From Candidatus Omnitrophota bacterium (lineage in GTDB: Bacteria; Omnitrophota; Gorgyraeia; Zapsychrales; JAHFFX01), in assembly GCA_023247705.1 (NCBI GenBank), contig JAHFFY010000010.1, positions 1 through 33,993 of the forward strand: a DNA stretch of 33,993 nucleotides, in the 5' to 3' direction. The translations under genes and the position numbers were made by a program. Positions within the stretch are counted from its first letter, which is position 1. Every line of letters begins with the position of its first letter. The notes under the pieces were generated by a model that was given only the letters and a program-made list of their open reading frames with translations, had not been told where the DNA came from and made no database searches. Below are positions 2,614 through 14,434 of the stretch, one piece after another.

Positions 2614-5109
2614 TCAGCCGTTATTCTCCGCTTCCCGGAGAACTTCGATTAATCGCGGTCCTTCAAATTGACCCGAATAAGCCGGAATGTCCGCTTCCTT
2701 CCACGGATCTTTATAAGCGGCCACCGCTTGGGCAATCCGTTCATCCAGCTGATTACAAATACCCAAAGAATCTTTCACTAAAATATTTCTCAAAATATCA
2801 ATGCCGATGCGCTCGACAAATCCATACGTCCTCTCGAGATACTTGGCGTGCTCACGGTAATATTGAATAAACCGGCCGATCATGGCGAGAACCTCTTCCT
2901 GCGTCTTGACGGTACAAAGCAAATCTCCTTTTCTCACCGTACTGCCGGCGGCACCGCCGATATAGATCTCCCACGAACCGCCTTCGATCGCAACGGCCCC
3001 GATATCTTTGACATAAGCCTCCGAACAATTGCGAGGACACCCGGCGGTGGCAAGTTTCATCTTATGCGGCGATTCGATGCCCTGAAAACGGTATTCAATC
3101 GCCTGTGCTAAATCAATCGAATCTCCAACGCCATAACGGCAGAAATCCGTTCCCACACAACTTTTACAGGTACGAAAAGCCTTGGTATAAGCGTGGCCAC
3201 TGGGCATTCCCAAATCTTTCCAGATCAACGGGAGGACTTCTTTCTTGACACCCAAAAGATCAATCCGCTGCCCGCCGGTAATTTTAACCATCTTCACTTT
3301 GTATTTAACCGCCGCCTGAGCAATGCGCATTAATTCATCCGGAGTCGTCACTCCACCATAGATACGCGGCACAACCGAAAAAGTTCCGTCTTTCTGAATA
3401 TTGGCATGAACACGGTCATTAATAAAACGGGCGTCGCGTTCGTCTTCATATTCGCCGGGCCAAATCGTTTTTAGCAAAGACGCTAATCCCGCCTTGCTAT
3501 CCGCGTCTTCTTTTCCTTGCGCCAGAATTTCAAAAACACGGCTGACCGACTTTAAACCGCGCGTCTGGATCTCGCGAACCAGCTGAGATTTTTCTAAGGG
3601 AACACCGGTGACATAATAATGTTCGCTCGCATCATAAGATACTTTTCCCAAACAATCTTCAATCAATTGCGCGATCATCCCCCGGCAGGACCCGCAGCCT
3701 TTGCCGGCCTTGGTCTTTCCGCCGACGGCTGCGACACTGGAGCAATTGTTTTCGGTAATCGCATGCATAATCTGTTTTTTGGAAACACCATTGCAGTTAC
3801 AAATTTGCGCGTGGTCCGGAAGGTCGGAGGCCTTGACTAACGCCGCGCCGGAAACGAAACCAAAGAGAAGCTCCGACCGGTTTTGCGGAACTGCTTCTTC
3901 CCGCATGAAAAGCTGCATCAATGTGTCGGCAAATTCCGTATCGCCGAGTAAAATTGCCCCATGGATTTTATTATCACGAACAATCAACTTTTTATAAATC
4001 CCCCGGTTGGGATCGCGGTAAACCAAAACTTCATCCTCGATGCGATCGGTATCTTTCTCTCCCATGGAAGCCAATTCGACACCCATGACTTTTAATTTTG
4101 TTCCGGTCTTTGAACCCATATACACCGCCTGTGGCGCCACCCCGGTAACGATATCCGCCAGTACGCGAGCCTGTTCCCAAATCGGTTCAACCAAACCATA
4201 AAGTTTTCCGCGGTGTTCAACGCATTCCCCCAAAGAAAAAATATCAAAATCGCTGGTGCGCATTTGATCATCACAAACAATTCCTTTATTCACATTCAAC
4301 CCCGACGCTTGCGCCACTTCCGTGATCGGACGGATCCCTGCGCTGACCACCACCATATCAGTTTCAATCGAAGTCCCGTCGGAAAAACCCAACGCGGAAA
4401 TCTTATTCTCATTGGAAATAATTTTGGACGTCTTCATACTCGTCAAAACCCGAATCCCCATTGCCTCCATGGTCCGTTTTAAAATCTGTGCGGATTCCTG
4501 ATCCAGCTGGTTCGCCATCAGTCCGGCAGCCGCTTCGACCACCGTCACTTCAAGCTGATGCGTCAAAAGTCCCCGCGCGGCCTCCAGCCCCAGCAAACCG
4601 CCGCCAATCACAACCGCTTTATGACATTTTTGGGAATACTGGGCGATCGAATGACAATCATCCAACGTGCGGAAAAGAAATGTGCCGGCCTGCCCCCAGC
4701 CTTCAATCGGCGGAACAAAAGGCCTCGAACCGGTGGCGATGATTACGTAATCATAAGGAACAACCATTTCTTCCTGGGTCGCAAATTTTTCATCATGAAG
4801 ATAAGGAACCGCTTCCGGAGATAAAGGTTTGCCTAAAACCACTTTCTTGGTACGGTCAATTTTAAAAGCCTTAACCCCCAAATGAAGAGTGATATGATTT
4901 TCTTTGTACCAGGAAAAGGGATTCATCATGACTTCAGTGGGGTCCTGGGTTTGATTGAGGACATTGCTTAAAAGAATCCGGTTATAATTGCCATAAGGTT
5001 CAGCGCCGAACATCACGATTTCGAATTGATCCGGGGTTCTGGACAAAATCTCTTCCACCACCCTGGCCCCGGCCATCCCGTTTCCGATAACGACTAATTT
5101 CTTTTTCAT
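2614..5109 (-). CDS. nirB: Nitrite reductase [NAD(P)H] large subunit
   Basis: FAD/NAD-binding VVIGNGMAGARVVEE, BFD-type [2Fe-2S] motif CNCNGVSK...GCGSCRGM, siroheme/4Fe4S motifs CKSCVGTDFC...CPRNCSEAYVKD. Start set at MKKKLVVIGNG (5109) with GAGGAG about 8 nt upstream. Confidence 0.95.
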   Translation of the reverse strand: MKKKLVVIGNGMAGARVVEEILSRTPDQFEIVMFGAEPYGNYNRILLSNVLNQTQDPTEVMMNPFSWYKENHITLHLGVKAFKIDRTKKVVLGKPLSPEAVPYLHDEKFATQEEMVVPYDYVIIATGSRPFVPPIEGWGQAGTFLFRTLDDCHSIAQYSQKCHKAVVIGGGLLGLEAARGLLTHQLEVTVVEAAAGLMANQLDQESAQILKRTMEAMGIRVLTSMKTSKIISNENKISALGFSDGTSIETDMVVVSAGIRPITEVAQASGLNVNKGIVCDDQMRTSDFDIFSLGECVEHRGKLYGLVEPIWEQARVLADIVTGVAPQAVYMGSKTGTKLKVMGVELASMGEKDTDRIEDEVLVYRDPNRGIYKKLIVRDNKIHGAILLGDTEFADTLMQLFMREEAVPQNRSELLFGFVSGAALVKASDLPDHAQICNCNGVSKKQIMHAITENNCSSVAAVGGKTKAGKGCGSCRGMIAQLIEDCLGKVSYDASEHYYVTGVPLEKSQLVREIQTRGLKSVSRVFEILAQGKEDADSKAGLASLLKTIWPGEYEDERDARFINDRVHANIQKDGTFSVVPRIYGGVTTPDELMRIAQAAVKYKVKMVKITGGQRIDLLGVKKEVLPLIWKDLGMPSGHAYTKAFRTCKSCVGTDFCRYGVGDSIDLAQAIEYRFQGIESPHKMKLATAGCPRNCSEAYVKDIGAVAIEGGSWEIYIGGAAGSTVRKGDLLCTVKTQEEVLAMIGRFIQYYREHAKYLERTYGFVERIGIDILRNILVKDSLGICNQLDERIAQAVAAYKDPWKEADIPAYSGQFEGPRLIEVLREAENNG

Positions 5110-5134
5110 GAGCACACTCCTCATTCTTCTTTCA

Positions 5135-5175
5135 GAAAACAAAAAGCCCAACCTCCGTCAAACGGTATCGGGCTT
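5135..5175 (-). terminator. Intrinsic terminator just upstream of the nirB RBS
   Basis: RNA AAGCCC-gauaCCGUuugACGGaggut-GGGCUU followed by UUUGUUUUC; ends about 25 nt before the nirB ATG. Confidence 0.7.
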
Positions 5176-5257
5176 CTTCGTCCTTATTGAACTTTTCCTT
5201 ATCGTTTAATAGAAGGAAGCTCAAGAATGTTTCTTCAGCGAAACGATTTCTAAATAT

Positions 5258-5332: not shown

Positions 5333-5430
5333 TTTGATAACTCTTATTTACCTCATGGCAAACTCCATTTCTTGATTCCCATTCTGCCGCGTCCTCAACC
5401 TAGGACATCTTCTTAGCTCTTTTTCCCTAA

Positions 5431-5476
5431 AAAGAAAAAGCCCTTCTCAAAAGCGCCCAACGCTTTTAAAAAGGAC
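5431..5476 (-). terminator. Intrinsic terminator 2 in the nirB leader
   Basis: RNA GUCCUUUUUAAAAGCG-UUGGG-CGCUUUUGAGAAGGGC, a continuous 16-bp stem counting G.U pairs, followed by UUUUUCUUU. Confidence 0.8.
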
Positions 5477-5486
5477 CTCATTGTCC
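5473..5486 (-). promoter_or_regulatory. Second ANTAR-like hexaloop hairpin (GGAC-AAUGAG-GUCC)
   Basis: 4-bp stem identical to P2, loop AAUGAG with A1 and G4; its GUCC arm starts terminator 2. Confidence 0.65.
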
Positions 5487-5502
5487 CGGTTTAAGAGGAA
5501 AT

Positions 5503-5540
5503 AAAAAATCCGACATGACTTTACCTTAGCCTTGCCGGAC
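5503..5540 (-). terminator. Intrinsic terminator 1 in the nirB leader, competing with hexaloop hairpin P2
   Basis: RNA GUCCGGCAAGGCU-AAGGUAA-AGUCAUGUCGGAU (one A.A mismatch plus G.U wobbles), followed by UUUUUUAUUU; 5' arm contains the GUCC of P2. Confidence 0.75.
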
Positions 5541-5585
5541 ATCTTTGTCCTACTGAAAACTTCTCAATAACCTTCAATGGTTATT
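5537..5585 (-). promoter_or_regulatory. ANTAR-type dual hexaloop RNA (P1 + P2) in the nirB leader
   Basis: P1 AAUAACC-AUUGAA-GGUUAUU (5566-5585) and P2 GGAC-AAAGAU-GUCC (5537-5550); both hexaloops have A1 and G4; followed by an overlapping terminator. Confidence 0.8.
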
Positions 5586-5605
5586 ACTGGTTAGTGACAG
5601 AGATA

Positions 5606-5634
5606 AATATAAATTTCTTTAGGTGTTTTGTCAA
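5606..5634 (-). promoter_or_regulatory. Sigma70-type promoter of the nirB operon (-35 TTGACA at 5629-5634, 17-nt spacer, -10 TATATT at 5606-5611)
   Basis: Minus strand TTGACA-aaacacctaaagaaatt-TATATT; intergenic, upstream of the leader structures. Confidence 0.75.
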
Positions 5635-5681: not shown

Positions 5682-6446
5682 TTACTTCCCAGTCTTCTTA
5701 ATACTCTTTTGTGAAAGATTACCGCTGACAAAAAGAACTAACTTGGGCCAATTAATAGCCCCTGAAACATGACAATAATCGCTGGTAAACTCACGCAATA
5801 ATCTATTAAATGCATTAGCTTTTTCTTCTTTAAAATTTGTATCATGTTTCTCTGCATCACAACCAAGAGGATCAATAAGATCTATATATAAATTTTCATC
5901 TCCGGAAATTAAATGCCAAAAACTTTGGCCCCCAATATGAAGGTATTCGCCGGTATAAACAGTCTTGAAATTTCCATAACAAATCCCTAACGTAGGCTGC
6001 AACCTTGTTTCTTGATCTGATTGTCGAATTATCTTTACTGCCGTTTTAAAATTTCTTTTCAATTCTAAATGTTGACCTGAATTACCCCAATTTCTTCCTG
6101 ATTTAACAGCGATTAGAAAGCGAACAGAATCCCTTATTAATTCAATATCAATCCCCTGCGCAGCTGATTTATGTCCGCCGCCGGTAATTTCTGCGACATA
6201 AATAGCGAGTTTTTCTAAGAATCCTCCAAACGAACCTTCTTCAGAAGAGGATAAGTGTGCATCTAACAAAGCACTAATCAAATTGGTGGCCAAATTCAAA
6301 TTTTTTGCGCGAAACAGATATGGATTCTTTCGTCGAAGCAAAAGTTTTAGTTCAAGTTTTTTAAGATTTTTAATGCGATTCAACTGAAAGGTAACAATAT
6401 TATCGCGTACAAATTGCTCGATTTTTTTTCTTGTTTCCGTTTTCAT
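5682..6446 (-). CDS. Type II restriction endonuclease, PmeII-like family
   Basis: KNPYLFRAKNL...SSSEEGSFGGFLEKLAIYVAE...KSAAQGIDIE...FLIAVKSGRNWGNSGQH...PTLGICYGN...GAINWPKL; family recalled from general sequence resemblance; adjacent to and overlapping a DNA methyltransferase. Confidence 0.75.
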   Translation of the reverse strand: MKTETRKKIEQFVRDNIVTFQLNRIKNLKKLELKLLLRRKNPYLFRAKNLNLATNLISALLDAHLSSSEEGSFGGFLEKLAIYVAEITGGGHKSAAQGIDIELIRDSVRFLIAVKSGRNWGNSGQHLELKRNFKTAVKIIRQSDQETRLQPTLGICYGNFKTVYTGEYLHIGGQSFWHLISGDENLYIDLIDPLGCDAEKHDTNFKEEKANAFNRLLREFTSDYCHVSGAINWPKLVLFVSGNLSQKSIKKTGK

Positions 6447-7299
6447 TAACTACCGTCTCCTGCCGCTCTTTTTTTATCAAAGTACCCTCTATTTGCTTAA
6501 TATACTCCGGGACGATCTCTATTCCTAAATATGCCCGACCAAGATCATGGGCCGCAACGGCCGTAGTTCCTGACCCCAAAAAAGGATCTAAAACAAGATC
6601 TCCGGATTTTGTGAACAATTTGATAAACCATTTAGGCAACGCTAAAGGAAAAACAGCACTATGATTTTTATTTCCGCATTCTGTACTGAAATAAAGAACA
6701 TTGGTAGGATAAGCCTTTGTCCTCCCTATCCAATTTGCAATCCTCTTTCCAAAACCACTTTGCACTCTTGAATCATCTCTGCGCAAATCTGTATCGCTAA
6801 GATTCTTGAGTCTTGTTTTTGCCCAATCTCCCATAGGCACCATCACTTGATCTTGATACATGGCAAATTGCCTTTGTTTATTAAATTGCAAACATCGTTC
6901 CCATGCATCACGAAATCTATTCGGCCATTTTCCAGGATAGCAATTCTTTTTATGCCAAATAAATTCTTCTGTCCATAACCAACCTTGTCGACGCATGCCT
7001 TGAATAAGATCAATAACATAGGTATGCCGTTCCGCCTCGACAACTTTTTCTTTAATATTCAAAATAAACGTTCCTGAAGGTTTTAATACGCGTTTTAAAT
7101 GAGAAGCAATGGGCAAAAACCAATTAACATATTTATCTGGATGAATACCGCCATAAGTATTCCTTCTGCTATCTGCATAAGGAGGCGACGTCACAATAAG
7201 GTCTACAGAATTTGAAGGGATATCTTGAAGGATTATTAAACAATCCCCTTGTATAACCTGATTTTTCCATTGATTAATATCTTTATTCATTTTAATCAT
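6400..7299 (-). CDS. Site-specific DNA methyltransferase (TSPPY, beta-class-like motif order)
   Basis: Motif IV DLIVTSPPYADSR before motif I DLVLDPFLGSGTTAVAAHDLGRAYLGIE; likely start MNKDINQ; overlaps the endonuclease ORF by 47 bp. Confidence 0.9.
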   Translation of the reverse strand: MIKMNKDINQWKNQVIQGDCLIILQDIPSNSVDLIVTSPPYADSRRNTYGGIHPDKYVNWFLPIASHLKRVLKPSGTFILNIKEKVVEAERHTYVIDLIQGMRRQGWLWTEEFIWHKKNCYPGKWPNRFRDAWERCLQFNKQRQFAMYQDQVMVPMGDWAKTRLKNLSDTDLRRDDSRVQSGFGKRIANWIGRTKAYPTNVLYFSTECGNKNHSAVFPLALPKWFIKLFTKSGDLVLDPFLGSGTTAVAAHDLGRAYLGIEIVPEYIKQIEGTLIKKERQETVVNENGNKKKNRAICTR

Positions 7300-7321: not shown

Positions 7322-8560
7322 CTATTTCTGAAATTCAGACATTAAGATGATCGATTCCGCGATGTCCTTCATCGTCCGGCAGGAATCCATGCTTTTTTTA
7401 TGGATCAGCTTATAGGCGGATTCTTCGCTTAAATTATTCATCCGCATCAGGATCCCTTTGGCCCGCTCAATCAGTTTTCGCGTCTCTAGGGCTTCTTTGG
7501 CCTTGAGCGCTTCTTCCATAAGCTTGGTATTTTCGACCGCGACGGCCGCCTGATTGGCCACCATCTGCAGGACATCGATCTCTTCCTGGCTGAAGTGATG
7601 CGGAGTTTTTGTATAAATATTAATAATGCCGATCGCTTTTTCTTTGACCACCATCGGAACAGAAAGCATCGACGTTAAATCTTCTTTAATCGCCAGATCG
7701 CGATAAACATACCGTTCTTCATGCCGGACATCATAGACCGCGATCGGCTTTTTGGACTTGATGACCTCGCCGCTTAAACTCTTTTCGACTTTGACGTTGG
7801 GTTTCGTTTTATATTCCTTACTTAGACTTTGTGTGGCTTTCATGACCAAATCCTGGCCTTTATCATCCAGAAGCATGATCGAGCAAATCTTGGAATTGAG
7901 CATTTCGGCGGTCACCACCACAATGAGGCTCAAAATTTCATCTAAATAGTGTTCGGAGGTGATTGTTTGGCTCACCTTAATTAAGCTGTCGAACTGTGAG
8001 GCCTTTTGTTTGGTTTCCGTGTAAAGCCGGGCGTTTTCGATGACGCCGCCGATCTGTTTGGCAATGGTCTGGATCAGATTGACGGTGTTAATGGCATATT
8101 CGTGAGGTCTTTTATGCTGCACATTAATGACGCCGATGGCTTTTCCTTTATAAACCACCGGAACGGAAAGGAAGGCCTCATAGCGGTCTTCGGGAAGAAC
8201 ATCAAAATTCTTAAAGCGGGAATCTTTATAGGCGTTCTTTTTGATCGCAACGGGTTTGTTCTCTTGCGCAACCCATCCGGTAATCCCCTCTCCGACTTTC
8301 AAATTGATCTTCCCGAGCATTTTTTCATGCGGGATCTTCGAGGCCAATAGGACCATATTTTCTTTTTGAGGATCCAATAGATAAATGAACACCGAATCGG
8401 CGGACGTCATTTCGGTCACGATCTTAACCACCTCTTTTAGAATCCAATTCAGATCCAGCTCCGAGCTTGTAATGTCGACGATCGTTCTTAAAATCTTAAT
8501 CTCTTGAGATTGAGAGATATGCAATTTCTTATTTTTATTCTGGGTTGTTTTCATTGACAT
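7322..8560 (-). CDS. GAF-GAF-ANTAR transcription antitermination regulator
   Basis: Two GAF-type repeats (VGEGITGWVAQENKPVAIKK...SVPVVYKGKAIGVINVQ; VEKSLSGEVIKSKKPIAVYDV...SVPMVVKEKAIGIINIY) and C-terminal ANTAR helix bundle (RKLIERAKGILMRMNNLSEESAYKLIHKKSMDSCRTMKDIAESI). Confidence 0.9.
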   Translation of the reverse strand: MSMKTTQNKNKKLHISQSQEIKILRTIVDITSSELDLNWILKEVVKIVTEMTSADSVFIYLLDPQKENMVLLASKIPHEKMLGKINLKVGEGITGWVAQENKPVAIKKNAYKDSRFKNFDVLPEDRYEAFLSVPVVYKGKAIGVINVQHKRPHEYAINTVNLIQTIAKQIGGVIENARLYTETKQKASQFDSLIKVSQTITSEHYLDEILSLIVVVTAEMLNSKICSIMLLDDKGQDLVMKATQSLSKEYKTKPNVKVEKSLSGEVIKSKKPIAVYDVRHEERYVYRDLAIKEDLTSMLSVPMVVKEKAIGIINIYTKTPHHFSQEEIDVLQMVANQAAVAVENTKLMEEALKAKEALETRKLIERAKGILMRMNNLSEESAYKLIHKKSMDSCRTMKDIAESIILMSEFQK

Positions 8561-12934: not shown

Positions 12935-14434
12935 TTAATCAAATTTAACCAAAGCCTTATAAAATAATTCATACGTGGGCGTCTTAAGAACAAAATCATC
13001 CACCCCGACTTCTTTGGCGTGTTCTTGATCTCTATGCCTCATATGCACCGTAAGCATGATCAGCTTGGGATTAAAATTTTCTATGGCTCTAATCCTGCGG
13101 CAGAGCTCAAAACTGTCCATATTATAAAAACTGCTCATCCCTAAAATAACAATTTCTGGACGGACAGTATATATATTCTCCAAAGCCTCGATGGCCTGGG
13201 AGGCGAAAAAAATCTGCTCATAACCGAAATCCCGGACAATCATATTCATTTGTTCTCTGTCTTCCTGATTAAAATCAACAATAAAGACCTTCTCCATTTT
13301 CTTTTCTGCTCTCTTCGCAGAAAAATAATACCGCGGGATTCTCTCTCTGCCTTTTTGCGTGACGGCTAATTCTTTCGGCAGCTGGAGCATATCCGGATAT
13401 TTCGCGTATTCGCGAGCGGTTTCAACCGTTATAATATTTTCCTTAAACATCTGCGAGAGGCATTGCTCGAGAGAATGCATCCCCACCTCATGCGCCGATT
13501 CCATTTGGCCCCTCAGTTCAAAAAATGATTGCCGGCGGATCAAATTCCTGACCGCAAGGGTTGCGATCATGACTTCAGTAGCCAAAACCCTTTTGGGCGA
13601 ATTTTTGCATGGAACCAAGGTCTGATGAACAACCGCGATCAAATTCGCGGCCAACTGCATACACACCTGCTCCCGGTGCCCGGGAGGATAAACATCGATA
13701 ATACGGTTGATTGTTTCCACGGCATCCGGGGCATGCAAAGTTGTCAGAACCAGATGTCCGGTTTCAGCGGTCGTTAAAGCCATCGCTATGGATTCGTGAT
13801 CTCTCATTTCTCCCACGACAACCACATCGGGATCTTGCCGCAGGGCATATTTCAGGGCCGTTGCAAATCCGTTGGTGTCCGAACCGACCTCGCGCTGAAT
13901 AATCAAACTCTGCTGGGATTCATGAATAAACTCGATGGGATCCTCGATCATAATAATTTTGCACTTTCGCTCCCGATTGATTAGATCGACCAGTGAGGTC
14001 AAGGTCGTACTTTTCCCGCAACCCGCGGTCCCGGCGATAATCATCAACCCTTTTCTCCGGCGAACAATATCTTTAAGCACCGGCGGCAGACCCAAAGCCT
14101 CGGGAGATTCTATATGGTTAGGCATGATTCTGATGGTCGCCGCCAAATTGCCTTTCTCTATATGAAGATTAATGCGCGTCTGACATTCTTTCATAAAAAA
14201 ATAGGAAAAATCCAAATCCTTTTGCTTGTGAAAGATTTCTTTTTGAATTTCGCTGAGCATCGGAAAAATGAGATCTTCGATATCTTCGGTGCGCATGATA
14301 CCCAGATGAAGCGAAGTTAACTCTCCATGGATACGCAGCATCGGCGGCTTGTTGACAACAAGATGGATATCAGAAGCGCTTTGCTGGATGGCTTGAATTA
14401 AAAGATTTTTAATATCGATTTGAGACATAGACAA
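12935..14434 (-). CDS. PilT-family type IV pilus ATPase with C-terminal receiver-like domain
   Basis: ASDIHLVVNKPPMLRIHGEL, Walker A GTAGCGKSTTL, EDPIEF, GEMRD, TTLHAPDAVETINRIID; C-terminal KVFIVDFNQEDREQMNMIVRDFGYEQIFFASQAIEAL...DDFVLKTP. Confidence 0.9.
   Translation of the reverse strand: MSMSQIDIKNLLIQAIQQSASDIHLVVNKPPMLRIHGELTSLHLGIMRTEDIEDLIFPMLSEIQKEIFHKQKDLDFSYFFMKECQTRINLHIEKGNLAATIRIMPNHIESPEALGLPPVLKDIVRRRKGLMIIAGTAGCGKSTTLTSLVDLINRERKCKIIMIEDPIEFIHESQQSLIIQREVGSDTNGFATALKYALRQDPDVVVVGEMRDHESIAMALTTAETGHLVLTTLHAPDAVETINRIIDVYPPGHREQVCMQLAANLIAVVHQTLVPCKNSPKRVLATEVMIATLAVRNLIRRQSFFELRGQMESAHEVGMHSLEQCLSQMFKENIITVETAREYAKYPDMLQLPKELAVTQKGRERIPRYYFSAKRAEKKMEKVFIVDFNQEDREQMNMIVRDFGYEQIFFASQAIEALENIYTVRPEIVILGMSSFYNMDSFELCRRIRAIENFNPKLIMLTVHMRHRDQEHAKEVGVDDFVLKTPTYELFYKALVKFD

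Follow-up and report, generated by a model that had tools for sequence, protein, structure and literature searches.

Serial hexaloop-terminator modules form a putative ANTAR antitermination array in the nirB leader of an Omnitrophota bacterium

Introduction

What decides whether RNA polymerase that starts upstream of nirB in a member of the uncultured phylum Omnitrophota reaches the nitrite reductase genes? The initial annotation of a 33,993-nucleotide stretch of this genome (the window) had read the nirB leader as a canonical ANTAR antitermination switch, with two hexaloop hairpins of which the second overlaps an intrinsic terminator. The locus bears on a dispute about ANTAR-RNA recognition: in the 2012 model, one ANTAR dimer needs two hexaloops, whereas in the reading based on the 2022 structure hexaloops are contacted one at a time. 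Our analysis indicates that the nirB leader is very probably a serial ANTAR antitermination array governed by a GAF-GAF-ANTAR protein encoded in the same window.

The nirB operon and its neighborhood

The large subunit of nitrite reductase is encoded by nirB (2614–5109, minus strand; TIGR02374, E = 1.5e-248). On the same strand follow nirD, for the small Rieske subunit (2224–2598; TIGR02378, 76.5 bits against a cut-off of 74.65), and a gene for an NMT1_2-family substrate-binding protein (811–2166; PF13379, E = 2.3e-81) that probably acts in nitrate/nitrite transport, its presumed substrates. The Shine-Dalgarno sequence GAGGAG at 5122–5117 places the nirB start at ATG 5109, not at TTG 5151 as in the ORF list. 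The nearest named relatives of NirB come from assemblies designated 'Candidatus Omnitrophota'.

The gene for the proposed antiterminator, a GAF-GAF-ANTAR protein, lies upstream at 7322–8560 on the minus strand (PF03861, E = 9.6e-21, plus GAF domains). Between it and nirB, a gene for an EcoO109I-family restriction enzyme (PF14511) and a gene for an N6/N4 DNA methylase occupy 5682–7299, also on the minus strand. In two relatives (G001 and G238), the nirB leader directly follows the ANTAR gene without restriction-modification genes, so the pair looks inserted in the window. Farther away, at 12935–14434 (minus strand), a PilT/PilU-family pilus ATPase carries an apparent C-terminal response-regulator receiver domain, an uncommon fusion recognized by weak matches at residues ~381–492.

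The promoter and the first module

A sigma-70 type promoter, TTGACA-N17-TATATT, lies at 5606–5634 on the minus strand, with TTGACA at 5634–5629, a 17-nt spacer, and TATATT at 5611–5606. It matches the consensus at 11 of 12 positions in a consensus scan and gives a predicted transcription start at ~5600–5598 on the minus strand; homologous leaders are also preceded by this promoter type. The first hairpin, P1 (UAAUAACC-AUUGAA-GGUUAUUG, 5565–5586, minus strand), has eight base pairs, a C-G closed loop with A1 at 5578 and G4 at 5575, and a folding energy of -6.3 kcal/mol. A 14-nt linker separates it from P2a (GGAC-AAAGAU-GUCC, 5537–5550, minus strand; A1 at 5546, G4 at 5543). The intrinsic terminator T1 with its U tract spans 5503–5540 on the same strand; its stem (5540–5508) forms 12 of 13 pairs, with U6 behind. 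GUCC is common to the 3' arm of P2a and the 5' arm of T1, which makes the two folds mutually exclusive, as the initial annotation had argued. The promoter, both hairpins, and the terminator sharing the P2 arm lie on the minus strand where they had been placed, and AUUGAA and AAAGAU do carry the A1 and G4 ascribed to them. The P1 hairpin itself stands, with a stem one pair longer than described. The initial observation of this module is confirmed.

The minimum-free-energy fold of 5590–5503 contains P1 and T1 but not P2a (-23.6 kcal/mol, z = -4.0), and 0 of 200 shuffled sequences matched its energy. In isolation, T1 reaches -14.5 kcal/mol versus -4.7 kcal/mol for P2a. Because T1 is far more stable, termination is the predicted default, and P2a should form only if stabilized by something.

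The second and third modules

The nirB leader is ~490 nt long and holds two further hexaloop-terminator modules (5486–5433 and 5183–5139) that had been overlooked. In the second, P2b (GGGAC-AAUGAG-GUCCU, 5472–5487, minus strand) displays an A1/G4 loop with A at 5482 and G at 5479, and its 3' arm is taken into the 5' arm of terminator T2 (5435–5479, minus strand; 20 pairs in the consensus scan). The energies are -24.0 kcal/mol for T2 and -5.5 kcal/mol for P2b. The third module has its own upstream hairpin, P1c (GUUUC-GCUGAA-GAAAC, 5229–5244, minus strand), which resembles P1 hairpins of relatives such as GUUUC-AGUGAA-GAAAC in G238. It is followed by P2c (GGAC-GAAGAA-GCCC, 5170–5183, minus strand), overlapped by terminator T3 (5140–5173, minus strand) ~20 nt upstream of the nirB Shine-Dalgarno sequence. 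P2c is barely stable alone (-0.6 versus -14.2 kcal/mol for T3); its third pair is A-C, as in 11 of 48 aligned modules. Both third-module loops are of the G1/G4 type. All five loops of the leader are closed by C-G, and each of the three terminators is more stable than the P2 hairpin that it excludes. Between T2 and P1c, at 5340–5255 on the minus strand, the inverted repeat GGGCAGACU...AGUCUGCCC encloses two small hairpins and resembles a small insertion or an additional structured RNA. In the earlier label of a canonical ANTAR switch, the ANTAR type is supported; with three modules in series, of which the described one is the first, and a 14-nt linker, 'canonical' is too simple.

Covariance models and the loop rule

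Rfam returned 0 matches in the window at the gathering score, and with E values of up to 10 allowed, the leader gave no credible match; no riboswitch was found there in the same search. The simple pattern GGRCRNNGNNGYCC occurred 31 times in the genome, as did its reversed control, so the hairpin alone is non-discriminating and only matches with an overlapping terminator are meaningful. To build model R1, we aligned 48 modules from leaders of nirB and amtB within the order to which this genome belongs; the model covers the P2 5' arm, the loop, and the terminator. Genome-wide, it gave five strong matches (E from 1.2e-7 to 7.7e-5) followed by a gap to 0.3: three before nirB, one before amtB (contig C58), and one before a 59-residue ORF (contig C27). 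Since the modules of the window belong to its training set and their R1 scores are circular, model R2 was built without this genome, from 44 sequences, all of other genomes. R2 found exactly three leader modules in the window, at 5501–5550 (E = 3e-8 in 40 kb), 5433–5486 (E = 1.4e-7), and 5139–5183 (E = 1e-5); the next best match had E = 0.34. A covariance-model scan had been proposed as a check on the initial reading, and R2, made for this study, does find the first module. It also recovers the amtB and C27 sites. On contig C27 (~60110–60156, minus strand), two hexaloop-terminator modules precede the 59-residue ORF (MSTNRKIENIF...), which has a predicted membrane segment and no Pfam match.

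An alignment of homologous leaders had been another proposed check. The loop residues are kept, which supports the ANTAR reading; the compensatory changes looked for in P2 did not appear, its sequence being nearly fixed (GGRC/GYCC, with the third pair A-C as well as G-U). P2 covariation was accordingly rejected as evidence, and covariation in the terminator helix is inflated and no independent proof because the modules were selected for complementarity.

C-G closed hairpins of at least five pairs were counted by loop size in a region outside model building, the 130-nt stretch that precedes each first module. Sixty-eight of these had six-base loops, against 5–11 for loops of four, five, seven, or eight bases. 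A purine at position 1 and G at position 4 (R1/G4) characterized 62 of the 68 (47 A1/G4 and 15 G1/G4), and P1-like hexaloops occurred in 46 leaders versus 0.5 in shuffled sequences. As read from these hairpins, the loop rule of the lineage is a purine at 1 and G at 4, by which the G1 loops of the third module are acceptable. Past the closing pair, P1 stems are free to vary, a purely descriptive statement given that the hairpins were picked for being paired. The P1-P2 linker ranges from 3 to 66 nt across 67 leaders of the order.

Modules and their targets in relatives

Modules detected with model R1 are present in 79 of the 81 genomes of the order and in all 38 of good quality. Across the order, 126 fetched stretches contained 202 modules in 132 leaders: 72 leaders with one module, 50 with two, and ten with three, so that 60 of the 132 are serial, with neighboring modules often 0–9 nt apart. 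The nirB leaders of several genera share the same elements, usually with two serial terminators. Judged from their predicted products, the targets are mostly nitrogen genes: amtB follows 42 leaders, type-III glutamine synthetase 32, and nirB 16, and the smaller groups include nifH, a glutamate-synthase-like subunit, carA, and a circularly permuted ATP-grasp protein. Some targets are not obvious nitrogen genes, among them two groups of seven without any Pfam match. Serial modules also occur elsewhere in Omnitrophota (contigs C1 and C110 of G074; contig C228 of G257), placing the array architecture in a range wider than the order.

The ANTAR protein

The protein encoded at 7322–8560 is the sole ANTAR protein found in a search of its genome (91% complete). 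Aligned to EutV (PDB 6wsh), with contacts taken from PMC8934654, it keeps most of the RNA contacts: R142, K143, E160, Y164, and M172 are conserved, while K147 is replaced by R, N173 by D (as in NasR), R175 by C, and R177 by T. Instead of a NIT domain, the protein carries two GAF domains that resemble those of NifA and PtsP. This likeness makes 2-oxoglutarate a reasonable guess for the signal, and no more; the protein may respond to general nitrogen status, perhaps through 2-oxoglutarate, by analogy with the NifA GAF domains.

Protein and modules occur together. Within the order, strong modules are present in 67 of 68 genomes with an ANTAR protein versus 6 of 13 without one (p = 3.7e-6), and of 38 genomes outside the order that carry modules, 36 encode an ANTAR protein (p = 3e-4), although both p-values overstate independence because the genomes are related. 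The six module-bearing genomes without the protein are mostly incomplete assemblies. G198, a relative in the order that is 95% complete, has strong modules and no ANTAR protein that we could find; a missing gene, orphan leaders, or another regulator are candidate explanations. A quarter of the leaders (33 of 132) begin within 1.5 kb downstream of an ANTAR gene.

Leaders without P1

In 32 leaders, which we call class II, the -10 hexamer ends 11–21 nt before a GGGC hexaloop hairpin. A -10 element this near predicts a start only a few nucleotides before the hairpin, with no room for a P1. Of the 32 class II leaders, 16 have a C-G closed R1/G4 hexaloop as the apical loop of the terminator, versus 10 of 88 leaders with longer 5' ends (p = 2e-5, for two classes defined after looking at the data). 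This suggests that the terminator can itself display a second ANTAR hexaloop at its tip. The first terminator of the C27 leader has such an apex (AAGGC-AAAGAA-GUCUU, A1/G4), with its -10 element ~50 nt away. We tentatively propose, at somewhat less than even confidence, that ANTAR proteins read single hexaloop-terminator modules in series without a P1, that the class II apex supplies the second hexaloop in a compact switch beginning only a few nucleotides from the transcription start, and that the nirB leader is a hybrid array combining modules with and without a P1. In Nitrospirota, three nirD-nirB leaders (L060, L065, and L066) carry one AGGC-AAAGGC-GCCU hexaloop-terminator each, behind a sigma-54-like promoter, and no P1 is evident; they are a possible P1-less ANTAR switch in another phylum.

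A model for control of the array and its alternatives

In the model that we favor, RNA polymerase starting at ~5600 would meet T1, T2, and T3 in turn. With no active regulator, the terminators would form and transcription would end before nirB. Once activated, the GAF-GAF-ANTAR protein would bind, through its ANTAR domains, the emerging hexaloops of P1/P2a, P2b, and P1c/P2c. Each ANTAR-bound P2 would stay folded, and the terminators would be blocked one after another, allowing expression of nirBD and the transporter gene. Serial terminators multiply, so cooperation of the modules would keep leakage low and make the response to active ANTAR protein steep. Other probable targets of the protein in this genome are amtB and one small ORF, and order-wide it probably governs a nitrogen-assimilation regulon, whose target genes suggest a response to nitrogen limitation. 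The sequences themselves establish the hairpins, their overlaps, the promoter, the conservation, the tandem order, and the co-occurrence; protein binding, antitermination, the signal, and cooperation between modules are inferred.

The strongest competitor to this serial array, possible though clearly less probable, is a strictly canonical mechanism of the EutV/NasR type, in which one ANTAR dimer binds P1 and P2a and each later module uses the preceding hexaloop as its P1. Module 1 does contain every canonical element, and P2a could serve P2b if one dimer contacts successive hexaloops, as Walshe et al. 2022 propose. However, P2a and P2b are 50 nt apart, and a 20-nt linker extension abolished antitermination at eutP (PMC8934654); the class II leaders of relatives, moreover, have no P1 at all.

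We consider it unlikely that regulation is confined to P1-P2a-T1, with T2 and T3 acting as constitutive fail-safe terminators or being decayed copies that matter little. Such a reading would account for the weak P2c, the two third-module loops starting with G, the single P1 serving the first two modules, and the insertion-like repeat between T2 and P1c, but a constitutive T2 at -24 kcal/mol together with T3 would permanently silence nirB. Evidence from relatives points the same way. A search of the 230 nt that follow the first module, which accepted terminators with or without a hexaloop, found a second terminator in 46 leaders, and 35 of these 46 had an overlapping R1/G4 hexaloop hairpin; nearly all hexaloop hairpins at second terminators (35 of 37) followed the rule. 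Conservation of the R1/G4 hexaloop argues against simple fail-safe terminators, which we regard as disfavored, and two modules are found in 11 of the 16 nirB leaders.

It is improbable that the hairpins mainly act as a decoy titrating the ANTAR protein, like EutX/rli55, with control of nirB secondary. Several hexaloops do lie on one short transcript that would accumulate when terminated; against this, almost every leader examined has the 3' arm of its hexaloop hairpin incorporated in a terminator, the array immediately precedes a nitrogen gene that has a Shine-Dalgarno sequence of its own, and EutX is under riboswitch control, for which the nirB leader offered no counterpart in the Rfam search. 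That the terminators merely end the upstream restriction-modification transcript, T1 lying ~170 nt past the restriction enzyme stop codon, and resemble ANTAR elements by chance is hardly credible, given the consensus promoter between that gene and T1, the same leader directly after the ANTAR gene in relatives without restriction-modification genes, and the R2 E-values and order-wide conservation, which exclude chance.

Comparison with known ANTAR systems

The nirB leader is well supported as a genuine ANTAR switch; it belongs to a known kind, in a serial variant that is partly P1-less in relatives. In the open literature, the range of our search, we found no report of tandem ANTAR terminators. 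The array predicts unusually tight and steep control through multiplied terminators, and the survey sketches for the first time a nitrogen regulon of Omnitrophota, centered on one GAF-GAF-ANTAR protein. Single hexaloops are predicted to suffice as binding sites (Walshe et al. 2022, PMC8934654), and the question of two hexaloops or one can be tested directly on natural leaders that have several modules and lack a P1.

The best-known ANTAR leaders are those of eutP, eutG, eutS, and eutA in Enterococcus faecalis, bound by EutV (Ramesh 2012, PMC3369931; Walshe 2022, PMC8934654). The nirB leader shares with them the A1/G4 hexaloops, the P2 overlapping an intrinsic terminator, and an ANTAR protein in the genome, and module 1 agrees with the ANTAR element of Ramesh et al. 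2012 throughout, except for its 14-nt linker. Linkers between eut loops measure 5–12 nt and were left variable in the 2012 search model; a 14-nt linker in a eutP construct impaired or lost induction (PMC3369931). Each EutV leader has one P1-P2-terminator unit, whereas the nirB leader has three modules in series, and EutV is a REC-ANTAR response regulator, in contrast to the GAF-GAF-ANTAR protein and its role in nitrogen assimilation proposed here.

NasR and the nasF leader of Klebsiella oxytoca (PMC7496416) likewise place ANTAR antitermination before nitrate/nitrite assimilation genes. NasR, however, senses nitrate through a NIT domain and has one known operon, while the GAF-GAF protein appears to serve a regulon with amtB that in relatives also covers glutamine synthetase and nifH. 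NasS-NasT (PMC3795266, PMC5424462) is a further case of ANTAR control of nitrate/nitrite assimilation, in which NasT pairs with a separate sensor, NasS. In Desulfotomaculum acetoxidans, a predicted ANTAR regulon has 13 RNA matches in six transcription units (PMC3369931); it too concerns nitrogen, its transcription units carry more than one ANTAR RNA, and it may be the nearest precedent for tandem modules. Both the serial layout and the leaders without P1 exceed what the papers cited here describe for E. faecalis and Klebsiella.
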